Positions 11,082 to 32,598 of a DNA stretch of 64,000 nt are shown here, in pieces. Position numbers and translations under genes: made by a program. The notes below the pieces were generated by a model. It saw only the letters and a program-made list of their open reading frames with translations. It had not been told where the DNA came from and did no database searches. Where the stretch lies: positions 1,165,991 to 1,229,990 of the forward strand of contig JAHLLG010000002.1 in NCBI GenBank assembly GCA_020444275.1. Reading direction: 5' to 3'. The DNA comes from Bacteroidota bacterium (lineage in GTDB: Bacteria; Bacteroidota; Bacteroidia; Bacteroidales; UBA12077). Position 1 is the stretch's first letter, and every line of letters starts with the position of its first letter.

Positions 11082-11129
11082 AAGTTAACATTTTGTTAGA
11101 ATCGTTGTTTTATAAATAAAATTTAAATT

Positions 11130-13760: not shown

Positions 13761-13797
13761 AAAACAAAAAAGTCTCCACAAGTAAATATGGAGACTT
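13761..13797 (-). terminator. terminator downstream of the YfcC-family carrier gene
   Basis: On the minus strand, a 9-bp stem AAGTCTCCA / TGGAGACTT with a 10-base loop is followed by a T-rich tail (TTTTTTGTTTTT). It starts 32 bases after the stop of the carrier gene and closes the cyanophycinase-carrier unit. Confidence 0.85.
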
Positions 13798-13829
13798 CAA
13801 CTATAGATAAACGTGATTAACACCCCTTG

Positions 13830-15431
13830 CTAGAAACCGTTTAAATCCATAGTCACAGTAGGAATCAATAGTATTAAACCTAAAATTACTAAGATCAGTA
13901 TGAATGGTGTTATCCATTTAACCCATTTTTCGTAAGGAATACGTGCTACACCTAACACCCCGATTAAAACTCCCGAAGTTGGTGTAATCATATTGGTAAA
14001 TCCATCGCCTAATTGAAAGGCTACAACCGTTGCCTGCCTTGAAACTCCTATAAGATCAGAGAATTGCGACATCATAGGCATGGTAAGGGCTGCTTTTCCC
14101 GATCCCGAAGGAATAACAATGTTTAATATCGTTTGGAACAAATACATCATACTTACTGATGCAATGCGCCCGAAATCATTCATCGATTTTGAAATGTAAT
14201 ACAACAAAGTATCTATGATATTACCATCTTGTAAAATAACAATTATACCACCTGCCAGACCAACAATTACAGCAGCTGACATAATATCCCTTACTCCGTT
14301 TAAAAATAGGTTAACAATTGTATTTGCCGAGTTATTCATTGCAATACCGGAAGCAATTCCCATAGCCAAGAAAATGGTTGCAATTTCCATTACATACCAG
14401 TCGTAACCCATTACACCAACGATTAAAAACAGGATGGTATATAACAATAGATTAAGAATAAAAAAATGCACCGATTTCAATAAAGAAACAAATGATGTAA
14501 CAGCATAAATTCCTGTTAATACAGGAATAATTGGCAGTATGGTTGATGAATTTCCTACTTTGAGTTCAGAGCTCGGTAAGAATACAGAATAGATCACAAG
14601 CGCTATTAGAATCACTATGTAGACAATCCACGCGGATAAAGGAGTATAGTATTTTACAGATGATTGATCACTTTCGCCTCGCTTACGCCAGTATTCATCA
14701 TTCTCATAAACGATAGAGGATCTTGGATTTTTCTTTACTTTATTGGCATAACGAAGAACATAAGCAATTCCAATCATATTAATTACGCCCCACATAAACA
14801 TTCGGTATTCAATTCCGGAAAATAAAGGAATATCAGCTAACCCCTGTGCAATACCAATGGTAAATGGGTTTAGTAAAGCTCCTGCAAATCCTAATCCCGC
14901 CGCAACGAAACACATAGATACACCAACAATAGAGTCGTACCCCATGGAAATCGCTAACGGAACAAAAATGATGATAAATGCAATGGTTTCTTCGCTCATG
15001 CCAAATACAGCTCCAAATACGCTAAACATAATCATAATGAGTGTAATGATTATATTATCGACCCCAAGGAATTTAATAAACCTGTTTGCTTCTAATTTTT
15101 TAGTGAACCTCAGGAATGAGAATATACCTACATCAATGGCCTTACTCTCGTTCATAATCCAAAATGCACCACCAATCATTAAGATAAATACAATGATATT
15201 TGATGTATTTACAAATCCATGAAATAAAGCAGAAAATATTTGCCATGTTTGAGGGCTGTTTTGGGTATATTCAAATGAATTATTTACGATAATTTCGCGT
15301 TCAACTCCATTAACTACTTTGGCCTGGCGTTGAAATTCACCACCCGGAACAAACCAGGTTAACACAGCAGAAAAAACAATTATAAAGAATACAATGACGT
15401 AAGTGTGAGGAATTTTGCGCTTTTTGAACAT
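13830..15431 (-). CDS. YfcC/DcuC-type inner-membrane carrier
   Basis: A 533-residue polytopic protein with about 12 hydrophobic segments. The start (IPHTYVIVFFIIVFSAVLTWFVPGGEF) is characteristic of the YfcC family (C4-dicarboxylate/basic amino-acid carrier superfamily), as are MIGGAFWIMNESKAIDVGIFSFL, FGMSEETIAFIIIFVPL and the C-terminal IPSGSGKAALTMPMM with FTNMITPTSGVLIGVLGVARIPY. Relatives carry dicarboxylates, arginine/ornithine or dipeptides. Its start lies 14 bases after the stop of a cyanophycinase gene and it sits in the same locus as an isoaspartyl dipeptidase, so beta-Asp-Arg dipeptide, aspartate or arginine are the likely substrates here. Family is firm, substrate is inference. 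Confidence 0.8.
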   Translation of the reverse strand: MFKKRKIPHTYVIVFFIIVFSAVLTWFVPGGEFQRQAKVVNGVEREIIVNNSFEYTQNSPQTWQIFSALFHGFVNTSNIIVFILMIGGAFWIMNESKAIDVGIFSFLRFTKKLEANRFIKFLGVDNIIITLIMIMFSVFGAVFGMSEETIAFIIIFVPLAISMGYDSIVGVSMCFVAAGLGFAGALLNPFTIGIAQGLADIPLFSGIEYRMFMWGVINMIGIAYVLRYANKVKKNPRSSIVYENDEYWRKRGESDQSSVKYYTPLSAWIVYIVILIALVIYSVFLPSSELKVGNSSTILPIIPVLTGIYAVTSFVSLLKSVHFFILNLLLYTILFLIVGVMGYDWYVMEIATIFLAMGIASGIAMNNSANTIVNLFLNGVRDIMSAAVIVGLAGGIIVILQDGNIIDTLLYYISKSMNDFGRIASVSMMYLFQTILNIVIPSGSGKAALTMPMMSQFSDLIGVSRQATVVAFQLGDGFTNMITPTSGVLIGVLGVARIPYEKWVKWITPFILILVILGLILLIPTVTMDLNGF

Positions 15432-15445
15432 AAACTTAAATTCTA

Positions 15446-16309
15446 TTATTCTACAATTGGAAATTTATCGCCTGGTAAGTATACATTTAACTCAACATCT
15501 TCGGCTCCAAGTAAGCCGTTAACAACCTTCGTTTCAGCAGTTTTATGGCGCAAAACAATTACCTGGCTCGATCCATATACCGTTGCATCATTACGATCAA
15601 CTAAAATTGCCGTTGATTCATCGATACCAATAGCGGTTTCTTGCGGATTTTCCAGGCTGGCTGATATTAACCTGTTCATGCGCATTCGTTTTACAAAATG
15701 CTGATCAATAATTGCATTTTTAAGTAACCCCAAACCTTCATCAATTTCAATATTATTCGATTCAATGGTTCTAAAATTGCCAGTATATTCAGGATGTTTA
15801 TGTTCATTACCTGTAATCATTTTTTCACTCATTACAGCAGCGCCAGCACTTGTTCCGGCAATTAAAGCTCCTTTTTCATAAGCAGCATGTATTGCATCAT
15901 GTACAGGAGTATTCTTAACAATCTTCATGAATATATTTTGATCTCCACCTGAGATATAAATCAATGAGGCATCTTTTAACGAATCGATTCGTGATGCTGT
16001 CATATCCTCTTCCGCTTGAAAGTTAAATGCAAAGACATTTTCTATTCCCCGATCTGTGAATTGCTTTATACCGTAATAAGATGCTGTATCAGGAATTTGG
16101 CTTGACATAGGCAATACGATAATATACCCTGTGCTATCGACACCTGAGATTCTAATCATATCTGTTATCATTGCAACCGGGCGTTTACCTCCTCCAATAA
16201 TAAACAGTTTACCTTTCGTTTTACTTTCTTGAACTGCAGATTGATCATTACTGCATGAACTTAAAATTACCAATAACATAAATGCCATTGCATAAAATTT
16301 ACGTTTCAT
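15446..16309 (-). CDS. cyanophycinase, peptidase family S51, lipoprotein
   Basis: A 287-residue S51 serine peptidase that would cut cyanophycin to beta-Asp-Arg dipeptides. The signal peptide ends in the lipobox VILSSCSN, so it is membrane-anchored in the envelope. Family marks: LFIIGGGKRP, YISGGDQNIF (substrate-binding Gln), GALIAGTSAGAAVMSE with the nucleophile serine in GTSAG (about residue 145), IDQHFVKRMRMNRL (catalytic His region), GIDESTAI and the closing VYGSSQVIVL. Length is typical for cyanophycinase. It is followed after 14 bases by the YfcC-type carrier. Exported S51 enzymes are known in a few bacteria that feed on external cyanophycin; the SusCD genes upstream fit that. An alternative is another S51 activity on aspartyl peptides. 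Confidence 0.85.
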   Translation of the reverse strand: MKRKFYAMAFMLLVILSSCSNDQSAVQESKTKGKLFIIGGGKRPVAMITDMIRISGVDSTGYIIVLPMSSQIPDTASYYGIKQFTDRGIENVFAFNFQAEEDMTASRIDSLKDASLIYISGGDQNIFMKIVKNTPVHDAIHAAYEKGALIAGTSAGAAVMSEKMITGNEHKHPEYTGNFRTIESNNIEIDEGLGLLKNAIIDQHFVKRMRMNRLISASLENPQETAIGIDESTAILVDRNDATVYGSSQVIVLRHKTAETKVVNGLLGAEDVELNVYLPGDKFPIVE

Positions 16310-16417
16310 AATTACACGATTAAAGTTTTTGTATCATTTTATCAAGCATACATCTTATAATACACCTTAAATGATATAAGCCCTTAAGTGAAATTGATTT
16401 TTTTGTGATTTAACCTC

Positions 16418-16444
16418 CATTATTCATGAAATTCATGAATAATG
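16418..16444. promoter_or_regulatory. perfect 27-base inverted repeat upstream of the cyanophycinase gene
   Basis: The arm CATTATTCATGAA is followed by one base and its exact reverse complement. It lies 109 bases upstream of the cyanophycinase start, in the gap between that gene and the ECF sigma gene. It has no T-run on either side, so an operator (or a structured leader) is more likely than a terminator. No known binding-site family was recognised. Confidence 0.55.
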
Positions 16445-16526
16445 CTGCTGACGTAGGAAAAATAAAAGGTTTGACTAAAGTAAATCTTTGATTTTTCACA
16501 GTCAGGCGATGACGCTTTCGGTCACG

Positions 16527-16547
16527 CCGTGACAATAATCGTCACGG
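16527..16547. repeat. GC-rich GTCACG hairpins in the sigma-cyanophycinase gap
   Basis: CCGTGAC and GTCACGG flank a 7-base spacer and can form a 7-bp hairpin. A further GTCACG copy at 16521 can pair with the same CGTGAC, so two mutually exclusive hairpins are possible. The base composition stands out in an AT-rich gap. Confidence 0.45.
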
Positions 16548-16548
16548 G

Positions 16549-16607
16549 TTAACCTGAACTATTCATAAATATTGAAAAATATAATATTTATGAATACGTC
16601 AGGTTAA
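16549..16607. repeat. 59-base inverted repeat overlapping the stop codon of the sigma gene
   Basis: TTAACCTGA then 3 bases then ATTCATAAATATT, a 9-base loop, and the exact reverse complements of both arms (AATATTTATGAAT and TCAGGTTAA). That is 22 paired positions with one symmetric 3-base internal loop. It includes the TAA stop of the ECF sigma gene. There is no clear T-run after it on the minus strand, so it may protect or end the sigma mRNA, but it is not a textbook terminator. Confidence 0.6.
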
Positions 16608-17194
16608 AATAATCCGGGGATAGCGAAAAGTAAAGGAAAGAATATTTCTGCTTTTACGGCTGCCCGCAAAGTTTTCAAAGCCAACCTCATATGTGCTTCG
16701 ACTGTCTTTTCAGAAATATTCAGTTTACTGGCTATTTCTTTATACGACAGACCTTCATTGCGGCTTAGCTGGAAAATTAACTTACGTTGCGGAGGTAATG
16801 ATTCGATGCTTTTATCGATGCGCGTTTTCATATCGGCTAATACCACATCATTTTCCGTTTTATTGTGATGCTGATCGATATAATTTTTTAAATATTCTTT
16901 GTAGGCATTTTCATTAACCTTTTTACGATGTTGATTGAAGATTGTATTTTTGGCAATAGTAAACAAGTAAGCATTAAACGATAATCCACGTTTCAGACCA
17001 TTTCTGTTTTCCCAAACCCTAATAAAAATCTCCTGAACGAGCCCCTCCGCATCTTCCTTAGTTTTTAGGTAGCGTAAAGCAAAATAATAAAGCCTTTCGG
17101 AGTAGATATAGTATAGCTCTTCGAAAGCTTTGCTATCACCCTCCTTAACCTTATCGATTAATAAATCATCAATATATTTTGAATTACGTTCCAC
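16604..17194 (-). CDS. ECF-type RNA polymerase sigma factor
   Basis: A 196-residue sigma-70 family protein of the Bacteroidales ECF type. Region 2: DSKAFEELYYIYSERLYYFALRYLKTKEDAEGLVQEIFIRVWENR (about 18-62). Region 4: SLPPQRKLIFQLSRNEGLSYKEIASKLNISEKTVEAHMRLALKTLR (about 133-180), a helix-turn-helix for the -35 element. Such factors usually sit directly before a FecR anti-sigma and SusC gene. Here the only fecR is 11 kb away at the head of the SusC operon, while the sigma gene lies between isoaspartyl dipeptidase and cyanophycinase, so I infer they are a split pair controlling this locus. It starts just after the terminator of the dipeptidase gene, which leaves little room for its own promoter. 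Confidence 0.88.
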   Translation of the reverse strand: MERNSKYIDDLLIDKVKEGDSKAFEELYYIYSERLYYFALRYLKTKEDAEGLVQEIFIRVWENRNGLKRGLSFNAYLFTIAKNTIFNQHRKKVNENAYKEYLKNYIDQHHNKTENDVVLADMKTRIDKSIESLPPQRKLIFQLSRNEGLSYKEIASKLNISEKTVEAHMRLALKTLRAAVKAEIFFPLLFAIPGLF

Positions 17195-17204
17195 TTTAGT
17201 TCTT

Positions 17205-17237
17205 ATAAAAAAGAGCCAATAGGATTATACGGCTCTT
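17205..17237 (-). terminator. terminator downstream of the isoaspartyl dipeptidase gene
   Basis: Read on the minus strand, AAGAGCC, a 13-base loop, then GGCTCTT runs into six T residues. It lies 18 bases after the dipeptidase stop and 10 bases before the sigma gene start. Confidence 0.85.
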
Positions 17238-17255
17238 CAATGCATAAGTTCTGTT

Positions 17256-18428
17256 TTATTTTTCGTACGTTCCCTTGATAACAATATTACCTTTATCCAT
17301 AAATTTCTTTCCTCTGGCAAAAACCTCTGTGATCGTATAATTTTTATCCATTAACACCAGGTCAGCATCATTTCCAATCTTTATTCTGCCTTTTTGTTTT
17401 AATTTCAGGATATCTGCAACATTTGATGTTACTACAGGTAATACCTTCTCTAATGGCAATTTTTCGTCCTTAATGGTATCAACCAATTCAGTAAAGATAG
17501 ATTTTGGTTGTCCCATTTCTAATTTTATGAGATTTCCCTTTTCGTCGAAATCAGGTAATGATCCATTCCCATCCGATGTCATCGTAATATGGTTCAACGG
17601 CACACCAGCTTTCAAGAATTCCGCTATTGCCCTTGAAGGTTTAATTTCATACTCAGGAAAAAACGGATAACTACTTGCGGTAATATCTATATAACCATGT
17701 TTTCCATACTCTTTTGCATCTTCGAAAATATAATCATTTCGATTACAATGTGTTGGAAAGAATTGGGTAAGTTTTAACTCACTTTGATTCACTGCATCAT
17801 AAATCGGTTGAAATGGATTTTTTGCATCGCCCATATGAATATTTGCTATACCTGCTTTTCCACCAAGCATTCCACCAACTCGTGCATGCTCTACTAAACG
17901 AATAAGTTCCTGTGTTGTAGGGCACGAACTTCTGTGATCAGAAAGTGCTATTTCTCCTATACCAATTATCTCTTCAATCATGGCAATATCTTTTCCTACA
18001 TCGCCCAAAATTGTTGGTGTTGGCACTTGATACGATCCGGTATACATCCATGCAGAAACACCTTCGGCTCTTAAAGATTTTACTTTCATTAAAATACTAT
18101 TCAACGAACGTGTCATTCCATCGGTTCCTAAACAACCAATTACCGTGGTTATTCCACCACTAATCATTTGAGATAATTGCATCTCTGGTGTTCTTGTAGC
18201 TGGGCCTCCTTCGCCTCCTGCACCTGCTATATGCACATGTGCATCGATCAAACCAGGTATGAGCATTTTACCTTTTGCTTGAATAACTTCTACACCTAAA
18301 TTTTTAAAAGTAGAAATATCAATTTGATCCTCAATAGCTAGAATCTGTTCACCACCTATCAAAACATCCTTTACTCCCAGGAATTGTGGACTATAAACTT
18401 CAGCGCTTTTTATTAGAATCATATACAA
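17256..18428 (-). CDS. iadA: isoaspartyl dipeptidase (beta-aspartyl-peptidase)
   Basis: A 390-residue cytoplasmic amidohydrolase that cleaves beta-aspartyl dipeptides, the last step of cyanophycin breakdown (beta-Asp-Arg to Asp and Arg). Metal and substrate motifs match IadA: LIDAHVHIAGAGGEGGP (HxH, residues 64-66, and Glu73), TGSYQVP (Tyr133), ALSDHRSS, ANIHMGDAKNPFQPIYD, FFPTHCNRN (with the substrate-binding Arg) and TSDGNGSLPDFDE (catalytic Asp). One oddity: residue 159 is Glu (IGIGEIALSDHRS), at the place where E. coli IadA has the carbamylated metal-bridging lysine. The start could also be the ATG two codons later. It lies immediately after the stop of the exported cyanophycinase-like gene and ends in a terminator. 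Confidence 0.88.
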   Translation of the reverse strand: MYMILIKSAEVYSPQFLGVKDVLIGGEQILAIEDQIDISTFKNLGVEVIQAKGKMLIPGLIDAHVHIAGAGGEGGPATRTPEMQLSQMISGGITTVIGCLGTDGMTRSLNSILMKVKSLRAEGVSAWMYTGSYQVPTPTILGDVGKDIAMIEEIIGIGEIALSDHRSSCPTTQELIRLVEHARVGGMLGGKAGIANIHMGDAKNPFQPIYDAVNQSELKLTQFFPTHCNRNDYIFEDAKEYGKHGYIDITASSYPFFPEYEIKPSRAIAEFLKAGVPLNHITMTSDGNGSLPDFDEKGNLIKLEMGQPKSIFTELVDTIKDEKLPLEKVLPVVTSNVADILKLKQKGRIKIGNDADLVLMDKNYTITEVFARGKKFMDKGNIVIKGTYEK

Positions 18429-20408
18429 TTAATTTGAAATGAATATACGTTGATTAAAAACCTGATTATCTGATTTTAAATTTACAATATAAACCCCTGA
18501 ATTAAAGGTAGTTGTTGATATAAAACCTTGATCAGTCATTAAATCACTAATCATTATACGTCCATTTGTATCGAATACCTTAACAAAAAACTGATTTTGT
18601 GGCCAACTACAATGAATTCTATTATCCGTATTGATTACAAATATTTTAACATTCTTTGGACGGGTTGGTTCAATTGCTGTAGTTACTTCAACCTCATTAC
18701 CCACTTTATAGGGAGTACTCTCATCTATTAACGATAAGGTCATATTTTCAAATCCGGCAAATTGTGGAGGAGTATCATTGGTATAACCATATGCCGACTG
18801 TTCTGAGAATCCACCTTTCGTTCCATCGTTTTTAAGAATCATAACCGGTGATGTGCCATATGCATTTACGTATGTTTCATTATTATCTGTTGGACCATAT
18901 TTGATATAATTATCTCTATTCAACCAAATACCATACGTTAATGTGTCGGTAATCATAGCATATGGAATGGCAGCAGAAGTGTTTTCGTAATAATCACTGC
19001 TTTTATATGTATTTGGAATTATAGCTGTTGTTTTTAGTAAATTAAGACCTTCATTAAAAGTTAACTCACCATAATAGGTTGCATCTGCTTCAAGATAATT
19101 TTGCACTACAGTTTGCCCTATTAAACGACTGTTATCGCCAATAAATGCAGAAACAAATCCATTGGAACGTATTTTAGCATTTAGTGCTTCACCTGCTGTG
19201 CCACCGTTTAAGAAATATTTTAAATCGGCATAACTATTATTGACAAATAGTATTTTCGATGCTTCAGCAACTGCATTAGCAAAATCATCATTAGATGCCA
19301 TATCAATCGTTGCCGAATAGATTTCAATATCCGTAGCTCCTGCAGTTGTCAGTTGCGTTTTATATGAATTTGCAATGGTTTGGCTCGATCCGGTAACAAT
19401 AAGTATTTTATCATCTGTCGATCCATTGTCATTTACAAAATCAGAGATCATATCCAGATTATCAGAAATATTATCCGACCCACTGGCATATACAATATAA
19501 TTTCCTTTTTCCTGCTTTATGGTTGGATTTCTCTCTTCTGTAAGTCCTGTAATCTCACCAGTATTAAAATCGATAGTACATCCTTGCAGTAGCTGATTAA
19601 CCTGAATCGAATCAGCCAATAACTTGCTATTTTGCGAAAATGTATTCTCAGAAAATGCAGTGTATATGTTTACCGTTCCAATACCATAAACTGTGCCCAT
19701 GTTATTATCATCGATACTCATAGCCGTCATTTCGTCGACACCAATTCCTACAATGGATTCGTTCTGGTTAAATTTCCAGTTAGCCATAAAAGCAACTAAT
19801 CGTCCAAACCGGGCACGAATAGTAAAGTGAGAATCAAATAGATACCCCGGAAAGAAGGGGAAGAAATCATTGGCTAATTGAATATCGCTATGTTCAGGAT
19901 TTTTTATACAATCATCTGGATAGGCAGAACCATTTTTAGCTGTAAAGATAACTTCAGAAAGTACAGCAAGACCTGCTGAGGTTCCACATATAACACCACC
20001 TTCAGAAAACTTATCTTCAATAGCTTGCTCTGTTTTTGTTCCCTTGTACGTAGAATAATAATTATACTGATCACCACCCTTTAGAAAAATTACATCGCAT
20101 GCCATCAAATCGTCATACGTTGTTTGAGCATCGGCAGTAGTTGAGTTGCTAATATTAAAATTAGTGGCCTCTGCAGCTCCACATTGATTTACAAAATAAT
20201 CAGGTAGCCAGTTATCTGCTGTTCCAAATGCTATAATTGCAACTTTTTTATTTTCTGACTGATCGACAGCCCATTTGTAAGCAGCATGATTCCAACTGTT
20301 TTCAGAACTTTTTTCTGATCCACCGCCAATAATTAATAAATTTCCCTGTGCAAAAGAACTCAGGGAAATTAAAACTATAAGAAGCTGTATAATAATCCTT
20401 TTCATCAT
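18429..20408 (-). CDS. T9SS-exported cyanophycinase-like protein with duplicated S51 fold
   Basis: About 659 residues. I start it at the MMKRIIIQLLIVLISLSSFAQ signal peptide; a longer frame to 20465 would run through a terminator hairpin. The first half is an S51 peptidase: NLLIIGGGSEKSSENSWN, VIFLKGGDQYNYY, GGVICGTSAGLAVLSE (nucleophile Ser), FDSHFTIRARFGRL and VGIGVDEMTAMSI. The second half begins again with YIVYASGSDNISDNL and follows the same order (ILIVTGSS, KILFVNNSYADLKYFLNGG) but has SAFIGDNSRLIG where the GTSAG nucleophile should be, so it looks like an inactive second copy. The C-terminal 70 residues (VKVFDTNGRIMISD, STTTFNSGVYIVNL) are a T9SS sorting domain, so the protein is secreted or surface-attached. 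It likely makes the first cut in external cyanophycin. Confidence 0.8.
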   Translation of the reverse strand: MMKRIIIQLLIVLISLSSFAQGNLLIIGGGSEKSSENSWNHAAYKWAVDQSENKKVAIIAFGTADNWLPDYFVNQCGAAEATNFNISNSTTADAQTTYDDLMACDVIFLKGGDQYNYYSTYKGTKTEQAIEDKFSEGGVICGTSAGLAVLSEVIFTAKNGSAYPDDCIKNPEHSDIQLANDFFPFFPGYLFDSHFTIRARFGRLVAFMANWKFNQNESIVGIGVDEMTAMSIDDNNMGTVYGIGTVNIYTAFSENTFSQNSKLLADSIQVNQLLQGCTIDFNTGEITGLTEERNPTIKQEKGNYIVYASGSDNISDNLDMISDFVNDNGSTDDKILIVTGSSQTIANSYKTQLTTAGATDIEIYSATIDMASNDDFANAVAEASKILFVNNSYADLKYFLNGGTAGEALNAKIRSNGFVSAFIGDNSRLIGQTVVQNYLEADATYYGELTFNEGLNLLKTTAIIPNTYKSSDYYENTSAAIPYAMITDTLTYGIWLNRDNYIKYGPTDNNETYVNAYGTSPVMILKNDGTKGGFSEQSAYGYTNDTPPQFAGFENMTLSLIDESTPYKVGNEVEVTTAIEPTRPKNVKIFVINTDNRIHCSWPQNQFFVKVFDTNGRIMISDLMTDQGFISTTTFNSGVYIVNLKSDNQVFNQRIFISN

Positions 20409-20420
20409 CAAAAATTTTCT

Positions 20421-20457
20421 ATAAAAATAAAAAATGGGGGTTTTATTCCCCCATTTT
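20421..20457 (-). terminator. terminator between the T9SS adhesin and cyanophycinase-like genes
   Basis: A perfect 10-bp stem AAAATGGGGG / CCCCCATTTT with a 7-base loop, followed on the minus strand by TTATTTTTAT. It lies between the stop at 20475 and the start at 20408. It may reduce read-through into the enzyme genes rather than end the operon. Confidence 0.75.
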
Positions 20458-20474
20458 CTATTCACAAAATTGTA

Positions 20475-22595
20475 CTATTTCTTTATAATTTTAGAACTTT
20501 TAATTATTCCCTCATTATTATAGAATGAAACAAAGTATAGTCCTGTTTTTAACTCAGATACGTCAATTTTAAGATTTTCATTGCCAGTAACCTGAACACT
20601 CTTTATTTCCTGACCTAAGGTATTAATAATAGATACCTGGTTAACACCATCAAGATTTTCAATATTTAGCACATGTTTTACAGGGTTAGGATAAATTGTA
20701 AACTCAGTATTAAACTTATCCTCTACTAATGTTGCTGTTGTAATATCATCACTTGATCTTACAGTAAGCAAGTAAATTCCATCGCGACCTGTCACAATTC
20801 CGGTAATGTTATGATTTGCTCCAACGGCTAACATATTTTCTCCGAAATCAGCATACAATTCAAATGCATCGCCAATGTAGAATGTATTAGTACCATCATC
20901 ATCAGTACAATTAAAATATGCACCATCCCAGCTTGTAATATTTACATTCTGGATGGTAACTAATGAACCTTCGTATTGTTCAGCAGGATCGGTATCAGCT
21001 GAAATTGAGGTTGCAATATCGGCACCTGTAATCACTACAGGATCATAAACATCATTTCCGCTAGATACTACCTCTATTAGTGCAGCAGGATAAAGTTCGG
21101 TCTGGTTTTTATATGCATCTTGTTGGCCATAAACCAGAATTTCATCGCCTATTGCAACAGTAACATCACCAGTAGCAAGCTCATAGGTATTTATTCCACT
21201 ATGTGCGGCCGATGCATCAGCAATCCAAACTCTGTCGTAATCATTCGTAGCCGACACAATCCCTTTAAAGGTAGCGTTGTAGCCTCCATCAATGGTAGTT
21301 GTATTCGTTATACTTAAGTATTCAATTGGTAGTATTCCTGCATAAAATTCTATTTCAGTACTAACATTTGAGCTAGAAAGTATATCAAGCGTATTATCTG
21401 CAGTAAATGATGCTGAAGCAGTAAGTATCACAATATTTTCATTAGTCGCATTCACTTCGGCAGCTGTAAATGTAAGGTCCTGCGAGCCTGAAAGGCTAAA
21501 TTCATCAGCACTAAATTCACTTGCACTTGGTGGTGCATCGTAAACTACAGCAAGCTCATTTTCACTAATAGCATATGCATCGTAAAATGCTGGCGCTATA
21601 TACTCACCAATTCTAAAATTATCAAAGAAAACTCTTGATCCAAACGATTTAGCTCTTATACCAACATAAATCATATCTCCGTCAGTGATTCCTGAAATAT
21701 TACTCATTTCATATTGATACTTAGTCCAATCCGGATTAGTATAGATCGTATCTGCATGAATTGTAAAATCTCCCGTTGTAACTCCTGTTTTGGAAATCTC
21801 CACATAGATAGTATCTTCATAATCAGCTTCGTTTCCATATAACCAAAAAGACATCACATCATCGGTACGTACTTCGAATTGTGGTGTAATCAACCAGTCA
21901 TCGGCAGGATCAAAATCAGCTTCATAAGTATCAACCCAAACACCATTTGTTCCTTCATAACCACCTTCTATGGTGTCGGTCCAGGTGTTAGGATTTCCGC
22001 CCCCATCAATTACTGTCCAATCGTTAGGAATACCTTCTTCGAAATCTTCATCAACAATGGTTGGTTGATATACCTTAATATCATCCATATATGCATAGTA
22101 TCCGCTAGTGTTTGTGTGAAAACCAATATAAATATTATCACCGTCTGCTACACCAGAGATTTCTGTTAAATTGAATGTAAATTTGGTATAATCAGCTGGA
22201 GCTTCAATTTTACCAACCACATAATCAAAATCAGCAACCGCAGATGTTGCTTTCGAAATATAAATATGAATACTATCCAGGTAATCAGGATCGTCTGATT
22301 TTGCCCAGAGAGAAAGGACATCACCATCATTAACTGTTATTTGTGATGTAACAATCCAATCATCAGCAATACCAAGATCTGTCGAGTCTGCCTCATACGT
22401 ATCTACAGCTAAGTGATATGTTCCGCCGTGTGGATCATAATCATCAATTACCCAGGTGTCAGGATTATGTCCAAAATCATGGGTAATCCATCCGGCAGGA
22501 ATTGCTCCATCTTCAAAATCTTCATCAATTTTTGCCTGAGCAAAAATAATGCTTGACAAAGCAACCAGGCTTAACATTAGTAATAGTTTTTTCAT
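20475..22595 (-). CDS. T9SS-exported protein with two cleaved-adhesin domains and an OB-like domain
   Basis: About 706 residues, started at the ATG at 22595 that opens the signal peptide MKKLLLMLSLVALSSIIFAQ; a longer frame to 22652 adds unlikely residues. Two 'choice-of-anchor J'/cleaved-adhesin domains follow: DEDFEDGAIPAGWITHD...DDWIVTSQITV...YAYMDDIKVY (about 25-180) and DEDFEEGIPNDWTVID...DDWLITPQFEV...RVFFDNFRIG (about 182-345). Then comes a domain with ATFKGIVSATNDYDRVWIAD and VAIGDEILVYGQ that resembles the YhcR/DUF5689 OB fold (about 450-630). The end (FTIYPNPVKHVLNIENL, DVSELKTGLYFVSF) is a T9SS sorting domain. No catalytic motif is visible. Its place between SusD/PKD lipoprotein and the exported cyanophycinase-like gene suggests a surface substrate-binding role. 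Confidence 0.75.
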   Translation of the reverse strand: MKKLLLMLSLVALSSIIFAQAKIDEDFEDGAIPAGWITHDFGHNPDTWVIDDYDPHGGTYHLAVDTYEADSTDLGIADDWIVTSQITVNDGDVLSLWAKSDDPDYLDSIHIYISKATSAVADFDYVVGKIEAPADYTKFTFNLTEISGVADGDNIYIGFHTNTSGYYAYMDDIKVYQPTIVDEDFEEGIPNDWTVIDGGGNPNTWTDTIEGGYEGTNGVWVDTYEADFDPADDWLITPQFEVRTDDVMSFWLYGNEADYEDTIYVEISKTGVTTGDFTIHADTIYTNPDWTKYQYEMSNISGITDGDMIYVGIRAKSFGSRVFFDNFRIGEYIAPAFYDAYAISENELAVVYDAPPSASEFSADEFSLSGSQDLTFTAAEVNATNENIVILTASASFTADNTLDILSSSNVSTEIEFYAGILPIEYLSITNTTTIDGGYNATFKGIVSATNDYDRVWIADASAAHSGINTYELATGDVTVAIGDEILVYGQQDAYKNQTELYPAALIEVVSSGNDVYDPVVITGADIATSISADTDPAEQYEGSLVTIQNVNITSWDGAYFNCTDDDGTNTFYIGDAFELYADFGENMLAVGANHNITGIVTGRDGIYLLTVRSSDDITTATLVEDKFNTEFTIYPNPVKHVLNIENLDGVNQVSIINTLGQEIKSVQVTGNENLKIDVSELKTGLYFVSFYNNEGIIKSSKIIKK

Positions 22596-22628
22596 AAGCT
22601 TATAATTTAAGTTAGTAATTCCATTATA

Positions 22629-22661
22629 AAATGTCCTATGGAAGATATCCACAGGACATTT
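22629..22661 (-). terminator. possible attenuating hairpin between adhesin genes
   Basis: AAATGTCCT and AGGACATTT flank a loop that itself holds TGGA/TCCA, giving a long stem on the minus strand 8 bases after the stop at 22669. The T-tail is weak (TTTTATAATGG), so it may process or attenuate the operon mRNA rather than end it. Confidence 0.5.
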
Positions 22662-22668
22662 CAGGTTT

Positions 22669-23583
22669 TTAAGGTTGTATTATTGTAATATTATCAATTG
22701 CTAATCTGTCGCCTCCAGGGAAAGGTGTCATTAATCTGAATGCCACATAAACGCTTTGGCCGGCAAATTGAGATAAGTTAACCTGATGGTAGGCAATACC
22801 ATCACCACCAACATCCTCTCCCACTTGCTCATCATTTACTCTGAAAACAACTCCATTTTCCATACAACCATCAATATCCTGCGATGAAGTTGATACATAA
22901 ATTTGATAACTATCAGGATAATTACCAGAAGTAGTTAATGACATCGCATTCCAGGTTAATATAGAATTATCTCCCAGAGTAACTGCAGGCAATATCATCC
23001 AGTCGTCAGCACCTGCTTCGGGATTATAGAATGAGTTTCCTAATGCAACATTTCCTTCGAAGGTTGATGAGTAAACCACTATCCACGCACTATCAGCCAT
23101 TGTTCCGTAATTAGGATTATCTGGGGTATTTCCATCGACATTGACCAGTTCCCAATCTGAAGGAATTAAATTGATGCCTTCAAAATCTTCTTTAAATAAG
23201 GTATCGCCAACTAGCTGATCAGTTAGTTTTACCTTTGCTGAGAATCTGGACGAGTCGCCAACCGAAGTTTTAACCACTAACGATACATTAAAAGCACCTT
23301 CCTCTGTAAATGTATGCTTAACTGCAGCTGTATCGGTTGTTTCTAATGTAGATCCATCATCAAAATCCCAGTAAAATGTTGGTGAACCTGCTCTCTCAGG
23401 AACAACACACCGGTTATAAAATGTTACCTCATCAGGCGGAATCAGATTATTTGAAGCCACAAACTCAAAGCTAGATACTGTACTTGGAGGAGGAACATCA
23501 AAATCCTCGGTATAATCTTCACAAGCATAATATGTAATACTTGCCATTATTAGAACTATTATAAAACTTAATTTCTTTTTCAT
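22669..23583 (-). CDS. surface lipoprotein with PKD and cleaved-adhesin domains
   Basis: A 304-residue lipoprotein (lipobox end SITYYACED; the acidic residues after the cysteine fit surface export of Bacteroidota lipoproteins). A PKD-like domain spans about 35-120 (VTFYNRCVVPERAGSPTFYWDFDDGS, HTFTEEGAFNVSLVV). It is followed by a cleaved-adhesin/choice-of-anchor J domain at about 130-304 (FKEDFEGINLIPSDWELVNVDG, DDWMILPAVTLGDNSILTW, RLAIDNITI). It follows SusD by 18 bases, the position held by SusE/SusF-like binding lipoproteins in polysaccharide loci, so it probably binds the imported polymer at the cell surface. No enzymatic motif seen. Confidence 0.75.
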   Translation of the reverse strand: MKKKLSFIIVLIMASITYYACEDYTEDFDVPPPSTVSSFEFVASNNLIPPDEVTFYNRCVVPERAGSPTFYWDFDDGSTLETTDTAAVKHTFTEEGAFNVSLVVKTSVGDSSRFSAKVKLTDQLVGDTLFKEDFEGINLIPSDWELVNVDGNTPDNPNYGTMADSAWIVVYSSTFEGNVALGNSFYNPEAGADDWMILPAVTLGDNSILTWNAMSLTTSGNYPDSYQIYVSTSSQDIDGCMENGVVFRVNDEQVGEDVGGDGIAYHQVNLSQFAGQSVYVAFRLMTPFPGGDRLAIDNITIIQP

Positions 23584-23601
23584 AATTAATCTGTTTTGAT
23601 A

Positions 23602-24972
23602 TTAATAGGTTCCGTTCTGTTCCATCAATTTATTGATATCTAACTCAGATTGAGGGATTGGGAACAACCAGTCGTTTTCGTCCATATTACCTGTAAGTGG
23701 TAAAACATCATTTGCTCTTCCGGTTCGTTTCAGATCAAAGAATCGGTGACCTTCGAATGCAAACTCTAATCTGCGTTCATTTTCTATTGCCAGCCTGAAT
23801 TGTTGCTGGTTAGTTATTGTTGCAGAAGTAAGATCGGGAAGATAAGCTCTGTATCGAATCTCATTGAGCAGATCAAACGCTTCTCCATCAGCTATATAAG
23901 CAATTTCATTTAACGCTTCGGCTCTGATAAGATACATTTCTGCCAAACGAAGAATTACGATATTATCCTTACCATTGGCAACATCGATATATTTATTTTG
24001 GTAATAATCTGTTCCGTCACTAATAATAGTAAAATCTCTGCGTTCATCTGAAGGATCAAAATAATCATATACGCTTTCTGTTTTATCATCATCTACCCAG
24101 GCAGTTACTTCAGTTCTGCCATCAGGCCTTGTCCAATCCGCAATGGCATTTTGATCATCATCGTTAGAAAAATTTATATCAAAAATTACTTCATCCGATC
24201 CTCCATCAAAAATGGTATAATAAGTTAATCCATCCTCTAAAGTAATTCCCTCTGTATTGTTAATAACCATTTCTGCTGCACTTGCCGCTTCAGCCCAGTG
24301 GTTTTCATATTCACTAAAGTACAAGTATACTCTTGCTTTTAAAGCAACAGCACCATAATAACTAGCAAGCTGGCTTTCAAAAGATGAATTCTCTAATTTT
24401 ACCTGTGAAGAATCTAAATCCTTAATGATTTGTAAATACGTGTTTTCTATTGTTTCTCTTGCCTGTTCCAGTGTTTCAGAACTAGCATCTGTCGTTGGTT
24501 CCAGCTTTATCGGAACACCACCAAAATATTTTACCAGGGTAAAGTAATTTAGTGCCCTTAAAAAATAACACTGCCCCATATAATAGTCTAAAGTAGTTTC
24601 ACTTAAAGTCGACAAACTACTTTCTTTTGCCAGAATATTGTTAACACGATTTATTCCATCATAGCAGGAATTCCAGATATCTTCGATATATGCATTAGAT
24701 GCCTGTAAATTGTTGTCATCGACCTGTGCATATTCTTTCTTTGATCCCACATGAATATAGTTGTCAGCCACAAGGTCACCAAATATAATAGCATCTTCGG
24801 CAAAAGCAACGGATTGTAACTGGTCATATGCACCAGTAACAGCTGCTGATAATCCATTTTCATCTGTAATTGCTGTTTCTGCAGGAATTTTATCTGTAGG
24901 TTCCACATCAAGCACATCGCAGCCTAGAAGCAATGCAAATAGAACTAATGTTATTGTGATAATATTTTTCAT
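23602..24972 (-). CDS. SusD/RagB-family substrate-binding lipoprotein
   Basis: A 456-residue surface lipoprotein (signal end LFALLLGCDVLDVEPTD). Family marks: LDVEPTDKIPAETAITDENGLSAAVTGAYDQL at the N-terminus, NILAKESSLSTL, YYMGQCYFLRALNYFTLVKYFGGVPIKLEPT (the most conserved SusD stretch), AVALKARVYLYFSEYENHW, NIVILRLAEMYLIRAEALNEI and the C-terminal NERRLEFAFEGHRFFDLKRTGRANDVL with WLFPIPQSELDINKLMEQNGTY. SusD forms the lid of a SusC barrel and captures the polymer or oligomer. It follows SusC by 18 bases. Substrate is inferred from the cyanophycin enzymes downstream, not from its sequence. Confidence 0.95.
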   Translation of the reverse strand: MKNIITITLVLFALLLGCDVLDVEPTDKIPAETAITDENGLSAAVTGAYDQLQSVAFAEDAIIFGDLVADNYIHVGSKKEYAQVDDNNLQASNAYIEDIWNSCYDGINRVNNILAKESSLSTLSETTLDYYMGQCYFLRALNYFTLVKYFGGVPIKLEPTTDASSETLEQARETIENTYLQIIKDLDSSQVKLENSSFESQLASYYGAVALKARVYLYFSEYENHWAEAASAAEMVINNTEGITLEDGLTYYTIFDGGSDEVIFDINFSNDDDQNAIADWTRPDGRTEVTAWVDDDKTESVYDYFDPSDERRDFTIISDGTDYYQNKYIDVANGKDNIVILRLAEMYLIRAEALNEIAYIADGEAFDLLNEIRYRAYLPDLTSATITNQQQFRLAIENERRLEFAFEGHRFFDLKRTGRANDVLPLTGNMDENDWLFPIPQSELDINKLMEQNGTY

Positions 24973-24990
24973 AATCTTCTAATTTTCGTT

Positions 24991-27900
24991 TTAAAAATTG
25001 AATTTTAATCCTATTGTGTACGTTCTCACCTGAGGATATGTAAAGAAGTCAACTCCTCTTGATACAGTAGAATTTCCCGAATAATTCACTTCCGGATCCA
25101 TACCGCTATATGGAGTAAGTGTGTAAAGGTTTTGACCACGTAAATAGACTCTGGCCGAATTCACCCCTATTTTATTTATGAGCTTTTCTGGTAAATTATA
25201 ACCTAATGTAACAGATTTCAATCGCAGGTATGAACCATCTTCCAGATAGTGTGATGACACATCATTGTTGTAAATTCCATCCGCTTTGGGAATATAGGTT
25301 TCGTCTCCCGGCTCCTGCCATCTGTCCTTTACAGTAGCCAATTGGTTATCATTCGAAATGGTCATATTTTCGGCGTATTGTCTTACACCATTAAAAATTT
25401 CATTACCATATGAATATTGAAGCAATATATTTAAGCTGATATTTTTATATGAAAAATCGTTTGTAAAACCACCCGTAAAATCGGCATGTGGACTACCAAC
25501 AACTTGCTTATCATTATCATTAATTACACCATCGTTATTAATATCTTCCAAGACCAAATCCCCTGACGAAGGATCAACGCCCAGACTTTTGTACATGTAG
25601 AACACTCCGATTGGTTCTCCAACCAATACAGCATTATTTCCTCTATTCTCGTCTGTTATAGGTTGGTCTTCATACAATTCTAACACTTTATTCCTGTTCC
25701 ATGAAATATTAAAATTTGAGGACCAGCTAAATTCACCCTTAAAATTATCCGTGATCAATTGAAATTCCAATCCTTTGTTTTCTAACTCGCCAATATTTTC
25801 TGACATGTATGTAAATCCTGAACTTCCTGGCAAAGGTCTGTCTAAAAGAAGATCTGTAGTATAATTATAATAGTAATCAACGGACAATAAAATTCTGTCT
25901 GTAAATAGTCCTAAATCTGCTCCTAAATTAAAGTTAGATGTTGTTTCCCATCTTAAATCAGGATTAGGAATTTGAGTAGGAATAATTCCTGGAGATGCAT
26001 CGTAATTGTATCCACCACTATATAGGTTTAAATATTTGAACGCTCCAATATTATCATTACCCGTATAACCATAACTTACTTTAAGCTTAAGCTCACTTAA
26101 AATTTCAATATTTTGTAAAAAGTCTTCTTCTGCTATTCTCCAGGCAACGGATCCTGCCGGAAGGTTTGCATATTTATTGTTTTCGCCAAAGTTAGACGAA
26201 CCATCGCGGCGCATACTAACAGAAAGCAGGTATTTATTCTCATAATTATATTTTACTCTTCCAAAAAACGATTCCAATCCGAATTCGGAATAAGATGATT
26301 CTGTATAATCCTGATCAATTACTGCAGCAGCATCGAGATATCTAAAATCTGGTGTAGAAAAACCTGTTCCTCCAACAATTATAAATTTCTCCTTCCATTT
26401 CTCGAAACTGTATCCTAATAAAAAGTTAATGTTATGCTTCTCTTTAAATGATTTAGTATAGTTCAACGTACTTTGCTGAGTAATTTTGAAAACATCAGAG
26501 CTTCCATCAGCACCATAGCCATTTGATGATGCTACAGATTGTATGGTTCCGGGTTCGTAGCGATGCTCTTGTAAATTATAATAATCGAAACCCCATTGGT
26601 GCTTAAATTTTAATCCATCAATAATTTCATATTCTCCGTAGAAATTAGATATATTTCTGAATGTTCTAGCCTGGTTATCTACAGTTTCTCCTGTCGCAAC
26701 CGGATTATCCCACCACCCCGTAGTAGCATAATTTCCATCTTCATCTCTTACCGGATAAACCGGAGGTGTTGAAATTGCATTAGGTAAAACTCCATTTACT
26801 GATTGATCGCCTCTTACCCTGTCGTTAATACTATAGTTAATACTTATTTTAGCTCCTATACTGAATCTATCAGATACATCATGATCAAGGTTTAAACGTC
26901 CATTATATTTTTCGTAGTTAGTTCCTAAAACAACTCCTTCCTGGTTAAAATATCTTCCGGAGATATAATACCTTGTTTTGTCTTTTCCTCCACTTGCCGA
27001 TAATTCATAATTCTGAACAGGTGCTACGTTAAGTACTTCGTCTAACCAGTCTGTATCAACGTTCTGATTAAAGGTAGTCGGATCAACACCCAAATCAACA
27101 ATATACTCTTTCCACTCTTCGGCATTTAACAGATCAAGTTTTTTATACACTTCCTGCAGACCGTAATAAGCCTGGAAATCAAACTTTGTTTCGCCGGCAG
27201 AACCTGTTTTTGTTTCAATTAAAATAACGCCATTACCGGCACGTGCGCCATAAATAGCAGCAGCCGAAGCATCTTTTAATACACTTATGGATTTAATATT
27301 GTTTGGATTAATATCTGCAATCGCATTAATCGATTGACCTTCCATACTAATCTGACTATAATCGCCTGAAGTTACCGGTATTCCATCAACAACATAAAGT
27401 GGTTGGGTGCCAGCTGAAATGGAACTTAAACCACGTATACTAACTGAAGTTGCAGCACCTGGTGTACCAGAGTTCTGATTAATGGTAACACCCGATGTTC
27501 TTCCCTGAAGAGCTGTTTCAAATCCTGATGAGACAGTATTTTCAATTTGCTCAGTATTAACACTGGCTATAGAACTGGTAAGTAATTTTTTACTTGAAGT
27601 ACCATAACCAATAACAACAATTTCATCTAGTTTTGTTGTTTCTTCGTATAGTGTGATATTAATTTCTGTTTGCTGTCCAACAACAACTAATTGTGCTTTA
27701 AATCCAACAAATGAAAATACTAGTGTTACCCCTTCTGAAGGAATATTAATTTCATAATGTCCATCCAAATCGGTGGTTGTTCCAATTGTTGTTCCCTCAA
27801 CAAATACATTAACTCCGGGCAAGGGAGAACCGTTCTCATCTGTAACAGTTCCCCTTATTTTACCTATTTGCTCATCGGGCTGACTCTGCACTTTTGTGTT

Positions 27901-28266
27901 TTTCGGATTTAACACAATTTGCTTATCTACCACCTCGTAAACAATTCCGGAATTATCCAAGATTTTATCCAGTAAGTCGTAAATAGTGTATCCTTCTGCT
28001 TCGATACTTATTTTTTGACTTACATCGATCTTGGTATCGTTGTACATAAAATAAAAATCGCTTTGCTGTTCAATTTCTTTAAGTGCCTGCTTAATAGAAA
28101 CATCTTTTAGCGAAAGCGATAACTTTGCGTTTTGCGCATAGTTGCTAGCGGTAGTAATGTTAATATAATTTATTAATAACATGATTACCGCTGCTTTTAG
28201 TACAAAGGAATATTTTTTTAACCTATTCCTTTTCGTTGACTTTGTCTTGCTTTTGAGTTTTTTCAT
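24991..28266 (-). CDS. SusC/RagA-family TonB-linked outer-membrane transporter with STN signalling domain
   Basis: A 1091-residue protein. After a long basic N-terminus and a hydrophobic segment comes an STN domain (about 45-115: LSLKDVSIKQALKEIEQQSDFYFMYN, YTIYDLLDKIL), which touches FecR-type anti-sigma factors. Then a carboxypeptidase-regulatory-like domain (IRGTVTDENGSPLPGVNVFVEGTT, about 138-215), the plug (LTSSIASVNTEQIENT, ALQGRTSGVTINQNSGTPG, SIRGLSSISAGTQPLYVVDGIPV) and a large barrel ending in TYPQVRTYTIGLKFNF. It imports oligomers across the outer membrane using TonB energy. The STN domain plus the upstream fecR gene show that substrate binding is coupled to ECF sigma activation. 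It is followed by SusD. Confidence 0.95.
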   Translation of the reverse strand: MKKLKSKTKSTKRNRLKKYSFVLKAAVIMLLINYINITTASNYAQNAKLSLSLKDVSIKQALKEIEQQSDFYFMYNDTKIDVSQKISIEAEGYTIYDLLDKILDNSGIVYEVVDKQIVLNPKNTKVQSQPDEQIGKIRGTVTDENGSPLPGVNVFVEGTTIGTTTDLDGHYEINIPSEGVTLVFSFVGFKAQLVVVGQQTEINITLYEETTKLDEIVVIGYGTSSKKLLTSSIASVNTEQIENTVSSGFETALQGRTSGVTINQNSGTPGAATSVSIRGLSSISAGTQPLYVVDGIPVTSGDYSQISMEGQSINAIADINPNNIKSISVLKDASAAAIYGARAGNGVILIETKTGSAGETKFDFQAYYGLQEVYKKLDLLNAEEWKEYIVDLGVDPTTFNQNVDTDWLDEVLNVAPVQNYELSASGGKDKTRYYISGRYFNQEGVVLGTNYEKYNGRLNLDHDVSDRFSIGAKISINYSINDRVRGDQSVNGVLPNAISTPPVYPVRDEDGNYATTGWWDNPVATGETVDNQARTFRNISNFYGEYEIIDGLKFKHQWGFDYYNLQEHRYEPGTIQSVASSNGYGADGSSDVFKITQQSTLNYTKSFKEKHNINFLLGYSFEKWKEKFIIVGGTGFSTPDFRYLDAAAVIDQDYTESSYSEFGLESFFGRVKYNYENKYLLSVSMRRDGSSNFGENNKYANLPAGSVAWRIAEEDFLQNIEILSELKLKVSYGYTGNDNIGAFKYLNLYSGGYNYDASPGIIPTQIPNPDLRWETTSNFNLGADLGLFTDRILLSVDYYYNYTTDLLLDRPLPGSSGFTYMSENIGELENKGLEFQLITDNFKGEFSWSSNFNISWNRNKVLELYEDQPITDENRGNNAVLVGEPIGVFYMYKSLGVDPSSGDLVLEDINNDGVINDNDKQVVGSPHADFTGGFTNDFSYKNISLNILLQYSYGNEIFNGVRQYAENMTISNDNQLATVKDRWQEPGDETYIPKADGIYNNDVSSHYLEDGSYLRLKSVTLGYNLPEKLINKIGVNSARVYLRGQNLYTLTPYSGMDPEVNYSGNSTVSRGVDFFTYPQVRTYTIGLKFNF

Positions 28267-28321
28267 AAAAGCGTTTATTAATTATTGAACATTCTTATTT
28301 TTCTCTATTATTAAATCGTTG

Positions 28322-29320
28322 TTAATTGGTAGTTACAATTACCTGATTTGTGTTTCTTTTAATATTTAGATTCGGTGTTGTTTTCTTTATCAATCTTAAC
28401 ACTTCATCTAATGATTCATCTGTAATTGTTATGGTATAATTGTATTTCTGATTTAACTCCTGGTCTACCTGAATATCTATATCGTACCAACGTTCCAAGA
28501 CATGAACTACACGGTAAAACGGATCGTTATCGAAAACAATAATGCCCTGTTTCCAAGAGGTATACTTTTTAGTATCCACCTGGTCCAAAACAAATCTTTC
28601 ATCTTCTTTATAAAAAACAGCTTGATGATTAGGTGTTAGGATCGCCTTTTGGGCCTTTTTCGTTTCAGGATTTACTCTCTTAACGCTAACCTTTCCGGTT
28701 ACTAATGTAGTTTGTATGGTTTTGTCTTCGCTATACGCCATTACATTAAAACTGGTACCCAATACTTCGATATCGAGCTTATCGGTTTTAACAATGAATG
28801 GTTTTTTCGCATTTTTAACAACCTCGAAAAAAGCTTCACCTTCCAAAGTTATCGTTCTATTGTTTCCTATAAATTTCTCGGGATAGGTAATCTTGGTCGC
28901 TGCATTCAACCACACTCTGCTTCCATCGGGTAGTGTTAACTCAGTTCTCTGACCTTTAGGGTTATATTTTTCGACCATAGCCACATTATTGATCATACCT
29001 GGTCGCAATACCAGTAGAAAATATAATGCACCAACAGCCAGCAATGGAATAACTATAGAAGCCGCGTGTTTTACTAAAAAGTTAGCTAACTTTCGAACTT
29101 TAGGTGTACTTTTTTGCTGCGAAATTAAACGAGCATTAATTCCTTTCGTTATTTTCTGATGATCGATACCGTGTTCAGATTTCAAATCGGAATAATCGTC
29201 CCACTGTTCTTTCAGCATAGAATCTGATTCATCGGAATTGTACACCTGTTTCTTTTCCTCATCGGTGGCAATTCCCCAGTAGAATTTCGCAAATAGTTTT
29301 TTATTTATTTTTTTACTCAT
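28322..29320 (-). CDS. FecR-family anti-sigma factor
   Basis: A 332-residue inner-membrane protein. The N-terminal cytoplasmic segment (KKLFAKFYWGIATDEEKKQVYNS) would hold a sigma factor; one transmembrane helix follows (IVIPLLAVGALYFLLVL, about 90-108), then the periplasmic FecR domain: NPKGQRTELTLPDGSRVWLNAATKITYPEKF, RTITLEGEAFFEVVKNAKKPFIVKTDKLDIEVLGTSFNVMAY, and the C-terminal DUF4974 region (NDPFYRVVHVLERWYDIDI, DESLDEVLRLIKKTTPNL). It heads the SusCD operon, 55 bases before SusC. No sigma gene precedes it; the likely partner is the ECF factor at 16604-17194. Length and order are normal for the family. Confidence 0.92.
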   Translation of the reverse strand: MSKKINKKLFAKFYWGIATDEEKKQVYNSDESDSMLKEQWDDYSDLKSEHGIDHQKITKGINARLISQQKSTPKVRKLANFLVKHAASIVIPLLAVGALYFLLVLRPGMINNVAMVEKYNPKGQRTELTLPDGSRVWLNAATKITYPEKFIGNNRTITLEGEAFFEVVKNAKKPFIVKTDKLDIEVLGTSFNVMAYSEDKTIQTTLVTGKVSVKRVNPETKKAQKAILTPNHQAVFYKEDERFVLDQVDTKKYTSWKQGIIVFDNDPFYRVVHVLERWYDIDIQVDQELNQKYNYTITITDESLDEVLRLIKKTTPNLNIKRNTNQVIVTTN

Positions 29321-30717: not shown

Positions 30718-30722
30718 GATAT

Positions 30723-32198: not shown

Positions 32199-32199
32199 A

Positions 32200-32226
32200 A
32201 AAAAGACTGATCATTAAATAATCAGT
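32200..32226 (-). terminator. weak attenuator ahead of the radical SAM gene
   Basis: On the minus strand ACTGAT, a 9-base loop, then ATCAGT, one C and six T residues, ending 2 bases before the ATG at 32198. A 6-bp AT-rich stem can only be a partial terminator; it would favour precursor over maturase expression. Confidence 0.4.
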
Positions 32227-32262
32227 TCTCATAATCAGCCTTTTAAAGAATACAGGTTTTTT

Positions 32263-32454: not shown

Positions 32455-32558
32455 CTCGCAAGGTTTTGTTAATAATTAGAAGTTGTACTTACAATAATAA
32501 CCTTTTATTGCTTTATTACCAAACCCGGTTCAATGAATACAATCTGCTATTTTTATCT

Positions 32559-32598
32559 GAAAAAGCTGGTAACGAGATCATAATCTCCCAACCAGCTT
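32559..32598 (-). terminator. terminator between RiPP precursor genes 2 and 1
   Basis: Read on the minus strand AAGCTGGT, an inner GAGAT/ATCTC stem, then ACCAGCTT and a run of T residues. It lies 26 bases after the stop of precursor 2. It would let precursors 3 and 2 be made in excess of precursor 1 and the enzymes. Confidence 0.75.

Follow-up and report, generated by a model that had tools for sequence, protein, structure and literature searches.

A probable cyanophycin utilization locus with a SusCD importer in a Bacteroidota bacterium

We analyzed a stretch of 64,000 nucleotides (hereafter the window) from a Bacteroidota bacterium (assembly GCA_020444275.1, contig JAHLLG010000002.1). Ten minus-strand genes at positions 13830–29320 of the window form a locus that very probably serves the utilization of cyanophycin through a SusCD importer. 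Cyanophycin is a nitrogen store of cyanobacteria; most of the known SusCD systems handle glycans, and RagAB handles peptides. A preliminary description of the window had listed the ten genes, and profile searches returned all of them with the same coordinates, strand and families. The importer consists of a SusC/RagA TonB-dependent transporter (24991–28266; TIGR04056, 918 bits) directly adjoining a SusD-type surface lipoprotein (23602–24972; PF07980 and PF14322), with 18 bases between the two genes. The degrading enzymes are two S51 proteins, one exported by the type IX secretion system (T9SS; 18429–20465) and the other a lipoprotein (15446–16309), and a predicted cytoplasmic isoaspartyl dipeptidase, IadA (17256–18428). 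The locus thus corresponds to the definition of a cyanophycin utilization locus in the available part of PMC10206079, namely a cluster of cyanophycinases, isoaspartyl dipeptidase and transporter that lacks cphA1.

Sequence and, for the T9SS protein, predicted structure indicate that both S51 proteins are probably cyanophycinases. The lipoprotein scored above the cut-off of the NCBIfam cyanophycinase model TIGR02069 (162.4 vs. 126.6 bits). Both proteins retain Ser132, His174 (which we take to be a member of the cyanophycinase catalytic triad), Gln101, Asp172, Arg178, Arg180 and Arg183 (CphB numbering). In its residue pattern the lipoprotein resembles CphB, and the T9SS enzyme CphE. The list of critical residues was taken from PMC3235067. 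Compared with PepE, both proteins score higher as cyanophycinases by sequence, and the T9SS enzyme does so by structure too. The top structural matches to the predicted structure of its first domain were cyanophycinases. The S51 fold, Ser132/His174 and the binding residues are shared with CphB and CphE (3en0 and 7uqw; Pseudomonas CphE).

Unlike these enzymes, the T9SS protein joins two cyanophycinase domains, of which sequence and structure comparisons show the first to be intact and the second degenerate, and ends in a T9SS tail. The intact S51 domain spans approximately residues 41–308, the degenerate one approximately residues 315–595 and the tail (TIGR04183, above cut-off) approximately residues 604–677. 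The second domain lacks the Ser and His motifs, and the catalytic motifs were kept in none of 46 aligned proteins. A direct profile comparison of the two domains gave a weak match (P = 0.0013). The second domain matched the profile of the lipoprotein S51 enzyme with P = 6.2e-6 and a score of 46.6; the 50 column shuffles scored no higher than 21.4, and the reversed control scored 11.0. Its kinship with S51 was also clear by structure comparison. The tandem is a candidate source of a cyanophycin-binding module and, if this holds, its degenerate domain would be the protein counterpart of a carbohydrate-binding module.

The S51 enzymes and IadA do not occur together by chance. The window IadA scored well above the TIGR01975 equivalog cut-off (488.9 vs. 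331.25 bits) and matched isoaspartyl dipeptidases in the PDB down to E = 1.8e-98. In a survey of 295 genomes of the order, a full-length T9SS S51 protein (E < 1e-120) was found in 13 and IadA (E ≤ 1e-40) in 47, of which 46 had matches above the cut-off. IadA was present in 12 of the 13 genomes with the full-length T9SS S51 protein, compared with 35 of the 282 others (p = 8e-10); in G163, the one exception among the 13, a fragment of IadA lies at a contig end. When any S51-domain match was counted, IadA occurred in 41 of 62 genomes with S51 and in six of 233 without. An S51 match lay within 12 kb on the same contig for 25 of 50 IadA matches.

The window SusC belongs to a lineage that is largely tied to loci of this kind. 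A search with SusC only (E ≤ 1e-200, two candidates scored per genome) returned 33 matches in 29 of the 295 genomes. Both S51 and IadA lay within 12 kb of 16 of the 20 best matches, the window included, and of none of the next 13, the cut after the twentieth match having been set after the list had been seen. Linkage of S51 with SusC/SusD and iadA, for which the preliminary description had proposed a search, is thus conserved in many genomes. The four misses are G198, described below, and three of other kinds: in G010 the SusC gene is broken by stops and the contig ends in SusD, and in G163 and G138 relatives of the window SusC have no S51 or IadA nearby, with S51 (and IadA in G138) on other contigs. 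In a quick tree of 83 SusC rows, computed with no mixture model and with long-branch warnings, the window SusC fell in a 50-row clade with a support of 97. S51 or IadA lies within 6 kb in 48 of these rows, and nine more SusC proteins with an S51/IadA context were placed outside the clade. Many rows of the tree were fetched through S51, and the SusC-only search is therefore the fairer test of the association.

The loci in named genomes retain much of the gene set in repeatedly reshuffled orders, with S51 and IadA still accompanied by this SusC lineage. Searching with the T9SS enzyme, we took the best 80 of 130 relatives as loci; SusC (at least 38% identity) was found in 43 of these, SusD in 40, IadA in 32, a second S51 protein in 47, the carrier described below in 22 and an IaaA query match in three. 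L082 has the gene order of the window without the adhesin, a component that is not constant among the loci of relatives. IadA was not found at E ≤ 1e-30 in any of nine named genomes (L117, L124, L126, L129, L134, L143, L146, L147 and L148), all of which have an Asparaginase_2 (IaaA-type) protein. One of them, Chryseolinea serpens, belongs to the order Cytophagales, as presumably do the others. The IaaA-type gene adjoins the carrier gene in Fulvivirga kasyanovii and is separated from it by one gene in Marivirga aurantiaca. In L123 and L131 the carrier is followed by IaaA and an arginine dihydrolase/dimethylargininase-like gene (by profiles in L123 and by 81–86% identity in L131). Because an unrelated enzyme for the same bond occupies the place of IadA, there is good sequence evidence that the product of the pathway would be a beta-aspartyl dipeptide. 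A general adjacency of IaaA to the locus in Cytophagales was not borne out by the three query matches in 80 loci, the adjacency having been examined in two genomes. An IaaA-type gene is also present elsewhere in the source genome of the window.

Six loci (L109, L116, L123, L130, L131 and L133) have another type of SusC, distant in the tree, near the T9SS cyanophycinase gene. Beside it is a second kind of SusD-like protein, recognized by PF12771 in L116 and L123 and by similarity to that of L123 in the other four. This suggests that a second, distant pair of SusC and SusD-like proteins may have been recruited independently to the same enzymes. In seven loci (L119, L124, L126, L129, L134, L143 and L146), one or two extra genes located between those for SusD and the S51 lipoprotein encode proteins that match PKD and beta-propeller-like families. 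The beta-propeller-like matches are to DUF5050, Ldl_recept_b or SGL; the proteins were recognized by profile in L119, L129, L134 and L146 and by similarity in the rest.

Several proteins of the locus carry signals for the cell surface. The source genome encodes a T9SS translocon, and two proteins have T9SS sorting tails: the S51 enzyme and an adhesin-like protein (20475–22652) with two choice-of-anchor-J stretches and DUF5689. Surface lipoproteins of Bacteroidetes have acidic residues after the Cys, according to the portions available of PMC5080379 and PMC6222051. Such residues follow the Cys of SusD (CDVLDVEP) and of a PKD/choice-of-anchor-J lipoprotein (22669–23583; PF18911 and NF038128; CEDYTEDF), which is thus probably also on the surface. 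Among relatives, a net acidic excess of at least two was found in 17 of 32 PKD lipoproteins, 18 of 48 SusD proteins and none of 21 S51 lipoproteins, a count that excludes eight more PKD and ten more S51 proteins with no recognizable Cys and in which some PKD and S51 Cys picks look wrong. A different Cys search with a plain count of acids gave 14 of 16, 19 of 42 and two of 17, respectively. As it shows no net acidic export signal, in contrast to the PKD and SusD sets, the lipoprotein cyanophycinase probably faces the periplasm. The two differently anchored cyanophycinases of the preliminary description are therefore both present, with the T9SS enzyme placed on the surface and the anchoring of the other refined to a probably periplasmic one. 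A periplasmic enzyme in turn suggests that SusCD may import oligomers besides dipeptides.

The locus has the parts of a signaling system. The SusC protein carries an N-terminal STN domain (PF07660), and genes for a FecR-type anti-sigma factor (28322–29320; PF04773 and PF16344, both above cut-off) and an ECF sigma factor (16604–17194; TIGR02985, 164.7 bits, above cut-off), presumably its partner, are present. Pairing of STN with FecR is the pattern of SusC proteins that signal to an ECF sigma factor. Among SusC proteins with at least 43% identity, FecR lay within 1.5 kb for 11 of 11 that carry STN and for none of 38 without STN. The pattern also held in the other SusC proteins that we examined (9 of 9 and 0 of 17).

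The remaining gene (13830–15431; PF03606, 336.8 bits) encodes an inner-membrane carrier that by family would be of the DcuC/YfcC type; its score against the YfcC model (386.3 bits) is below the cut-off of 500 and does not fix its substrate. Together, these components suggest the following pathway. At the surface, SusD and the PKD lipoprotein would bind cyanophycin from dead cyanobacteria, perhaps together with the degenerate domain of the T9SS enzyme, whose intact domain would cut the polymer there. Short (beta-Asp-Arg)n chains or dipeptides would enter through SusCD, and in the periplasm the lipoprotein cyanophycinase would complete the cleavage. Transport of beta-Asp-Arg, or of what is made from it, over the inner membrane may fall to the YfcC-type carrier, and cytoplasmic IadA would split beta-Asp-Arg into Asp and Arg. 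Occupied SusC may signal via STN to FecR and the ECF sigma factor and thereby raise expression. The surface-to-cytoplasm route proposed in the preliminary description is thus well supported by the catalytic residues, the predicted structure, the conserved linkage and the replacement of IadA by IaaA in a few loci, with cyanophycin itself remaining the probable substrate. A possible but somewhat doubtful extension is that the SusCD lineage is specialized on a non-ribosomal isopeptide polymer, importing (beta-Asp-Arg)n oligomers in addition to free dipeptide, with the degenerate domain of the surface enzyme as a polymer-binding module and the second SusC/SusD-like pair as an independent recruitment.

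Several observations weigh against a cyanophycin locus. First, the T9SS enzyme falls just under the TIGR02069 cut-off (116.5 vs. 126.6 bits), and 7uqv, the solved structure nearest to each of the two S51 proteins, is titled "pseudo-CphB". In motif searches of 80 relatives of the T9SS enzyme, the position of the CphB triad residue Glu201 was occupied by Asp in 62 and Glu in nine and was not located in nine, and Gln101 was found in 74; part of the motif set was missing in 11 of 44 further S51 proteins of the loci. Second, IadA is promiscuous and accepts a range of beta-aspartyl dipeptides, as stated in the part available of PMC10206079, so that IadA alone is no proof of beta-Asp-Arg. Third, IadA above the cut-off was found in just three of 20 genomes of the window's genus, and the trait is therefore patchy within it. 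One genome of this genus, G198, has a related SusC, placed just outside the 50-row clade, with no S51 or IadA near it, and is a real counter-example. Finally, 29 of the 80 loci in named genomes have neither the window-type SusC nor IadA; 13 of these are stretches shorter than 15 kb, five have another SusC type (L116, L123, L130, L131 and L133) and the rest are unexplained.

Among other explanations, the one that survives best, although we consider it unlikely, is a general scavenging of isoaspartyl residues and peptides, in which SusCD would import protein-derived peptides like RagAB and S51 and IadA would clear the beta-aspartyl bonds. The range of dipeptides taken by IadA (PMC10206079, in its accessible text) is compatible with such a role, and RagA is among the solved relatives of the window SusC, though not the top match. 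However, both S51 proteins keep the critical cyanophycinase residues and score above PepE, no general endopeptidase was found by Pfam among the ten genes, and L123 and L131 also include the arginine dihydrolase/dimethylargininase-like gene. It is more improbable still that the SusCD pair serves another ligand and merely adjoins the cyanophycin enzymes. SusC and SusD are common and diverse, and in G198, G163 and G138 the contig regions around relatives of the window SusC contain neither S51 nor IadA. Against this, the lineage keeps its association with S51 and IadA despite reshuffled orders, the S51/IadA context was absent from all 13 next-best SusC matches, and G163 and G138 carry S51 elsewhere in the genome. 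Finally, although cyanophycinase genes cluster with cphA1 in many genomes (PMC10206079, available portion), turnover of the cell's own cyanophycin store was rejected as very improbable, since no cyanophycin synthetase (CphA) scored above the cut-off in the source genome, which is near complete (10 contigs, completeness 98.87), and the T9SS and lipoprotein cyanophycinases carry a sorting tail and a lipoprotein signal, respectively.

Utilization of external cyanophycin through SusCD, the reading we prefer, has partial precedents. Like the window, the locus of Bacteroidetes strain L21-Spi-D4 (presumably Salinivirga cyanobacteriivorans) is from Bacteroidota and combines cyanophycinases, iadA and a transporter. 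PMC10206079 attributes the description of this cyanophycin utilization locus to Ben Hania et al. 2017 and also names a similar cluster in Flammeovirga. Salinivirga, like the window, has S51 homologues of two kinds, one plain and one with a Por domain (available part of PMC6243061). The preliminary description knew of no SusCD system for cyanophycin. The novelty that this implies is only partly upheld, as the Bacteroidetes locus as such is already credited in PMC10206079. As to the union of cyanophycinase with SusD, in a literature search that left subscription journals mostly outside, nothing was found that joins the two in one system (a Dyadobacter paper has both words in separate passages), and no match paired cyanophycinase with T9SS. 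What is added to the known locus is the SusC lineage largely tied to such loci, the lipoprotein cyanophycinase, probably periplasmic, and the tandem T9SS enzyme, none of which was met in the literature examined, in part as excerpts and with no search aimed at the tandem domain.

Other relatives share parts of the system. In G214, S51, SusC, SusD, a PKD-like lipoprotein, IadA and a T9SS S51 protein occur together in the 30 kb examined (L044 and L064), with a third S51 protein elsewhere in the genome; in comparison, the window has a different gene order and adds FecR, the ECF sigma factor, STN on SusC, the T9SS adhesin and the YfcC-type carrier. The SusC/RagA and SusD families and FecR/ECF are shared with polysaccharide utilization loci for glycans and with RagAB, but the degrading enzymes of the window are S51 proteins and IadA, and Pfam found no glycan-active enzyme among the ten genes. 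A further likeness is found in the alphaproteobacterium Citromicrobium sp. JLT1363. There, cyanophycin was proposed from gene context as the substrate of a TonB-dependent transporter encoded beside a cyanophycinase gene, a single transporter for which the available part of PMC3400609 mentions no SusD. If our reading is right, a conserved SusCD lineage tied to cyanophycin enzymes would show how Bacteroidota tap a major nitrogen store of cyanobacteria. The sequenced loci of named strains of Chryseolinea, Marivirga, Fulvivirga and Mangrovivirga, among them L129 of Chryseolinea serpens and L147 of Marivirga sericea, make it directly testable.

The ten genes are probably not one simple operon, as the gap separating IadA from ECF contains a hairpin and T run (seen by eye and absent from the list of the terminator scan), 294 bases separate ECF from the lipoprotein S51 gene, and a terminator-like site follows the carrier gene. 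The gaps from FecR through IadA are 0 to 55 bases, ECF begins 61 bases past IadA, and the carrier gene lies 14 bases past the lipoprotein S51 gene. The terminator-like hairpin past the carrier (13769–13798, minus strand) is a consensus match only and weak, as the scan gave nine sites compared with a shuffle mean of 7.7. The Bacteroidetes promoter motif (−33/−7) had no match before FecR, ECF or the lipoprotein S51 gene or after the carrier gene, a sigma-70 scan gave fewer sites than the shuffles (61 vs. a mean of 73.2), and no Rfam family exceeded the threshold within 12000–33000.

Elsewhere, the source genome encodes eight SusC proteins above the family cut-off, including that of the locus. 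Two more S51 proteins are encoded outside the window, on contigs C9 (1258066–1258695) and C8 (28846–29427), besides the strongest S51 match on C4. The C8 gene lies approximately 2 kb from a gene for a protein that partially matches the cyanophycin synthetase model.

The nearest flanking genes look unrelated to the locus, with DUF4349 and LiaF-like genes, an EgtD-type methyltransferase and a rhodanese on one side and radical-SAM peptide maturases on the other. The radical-SAM genes were rejected as locus members, as they resemble a peptide-maturase set. This cassette, directly upstream of the locus (29500–33077, minus strand), contains a TIGR04148 radical SAM maturase (30723–32198; 431 bits, cut-off 300), a TIGR04150-like pseudo-rSAM protein (29500–30717; 230 bits, under the cut-off of 250) and three small ORFs (32263–32454, 32624–32830 and 32874–33077) with similar leaders, a common Cys/Ser/Gly-rich core and SDNNSAN or SDNSSAN near the end. 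On the plus strand at 9783–12128, a protein with three rhodanese stretches (9783–11081) is encoded beside the EgtD-type histidine methyltransferase (11130–12128; TIGR03438, above cut-off), and the two are possibly an ergothioneine-like set.

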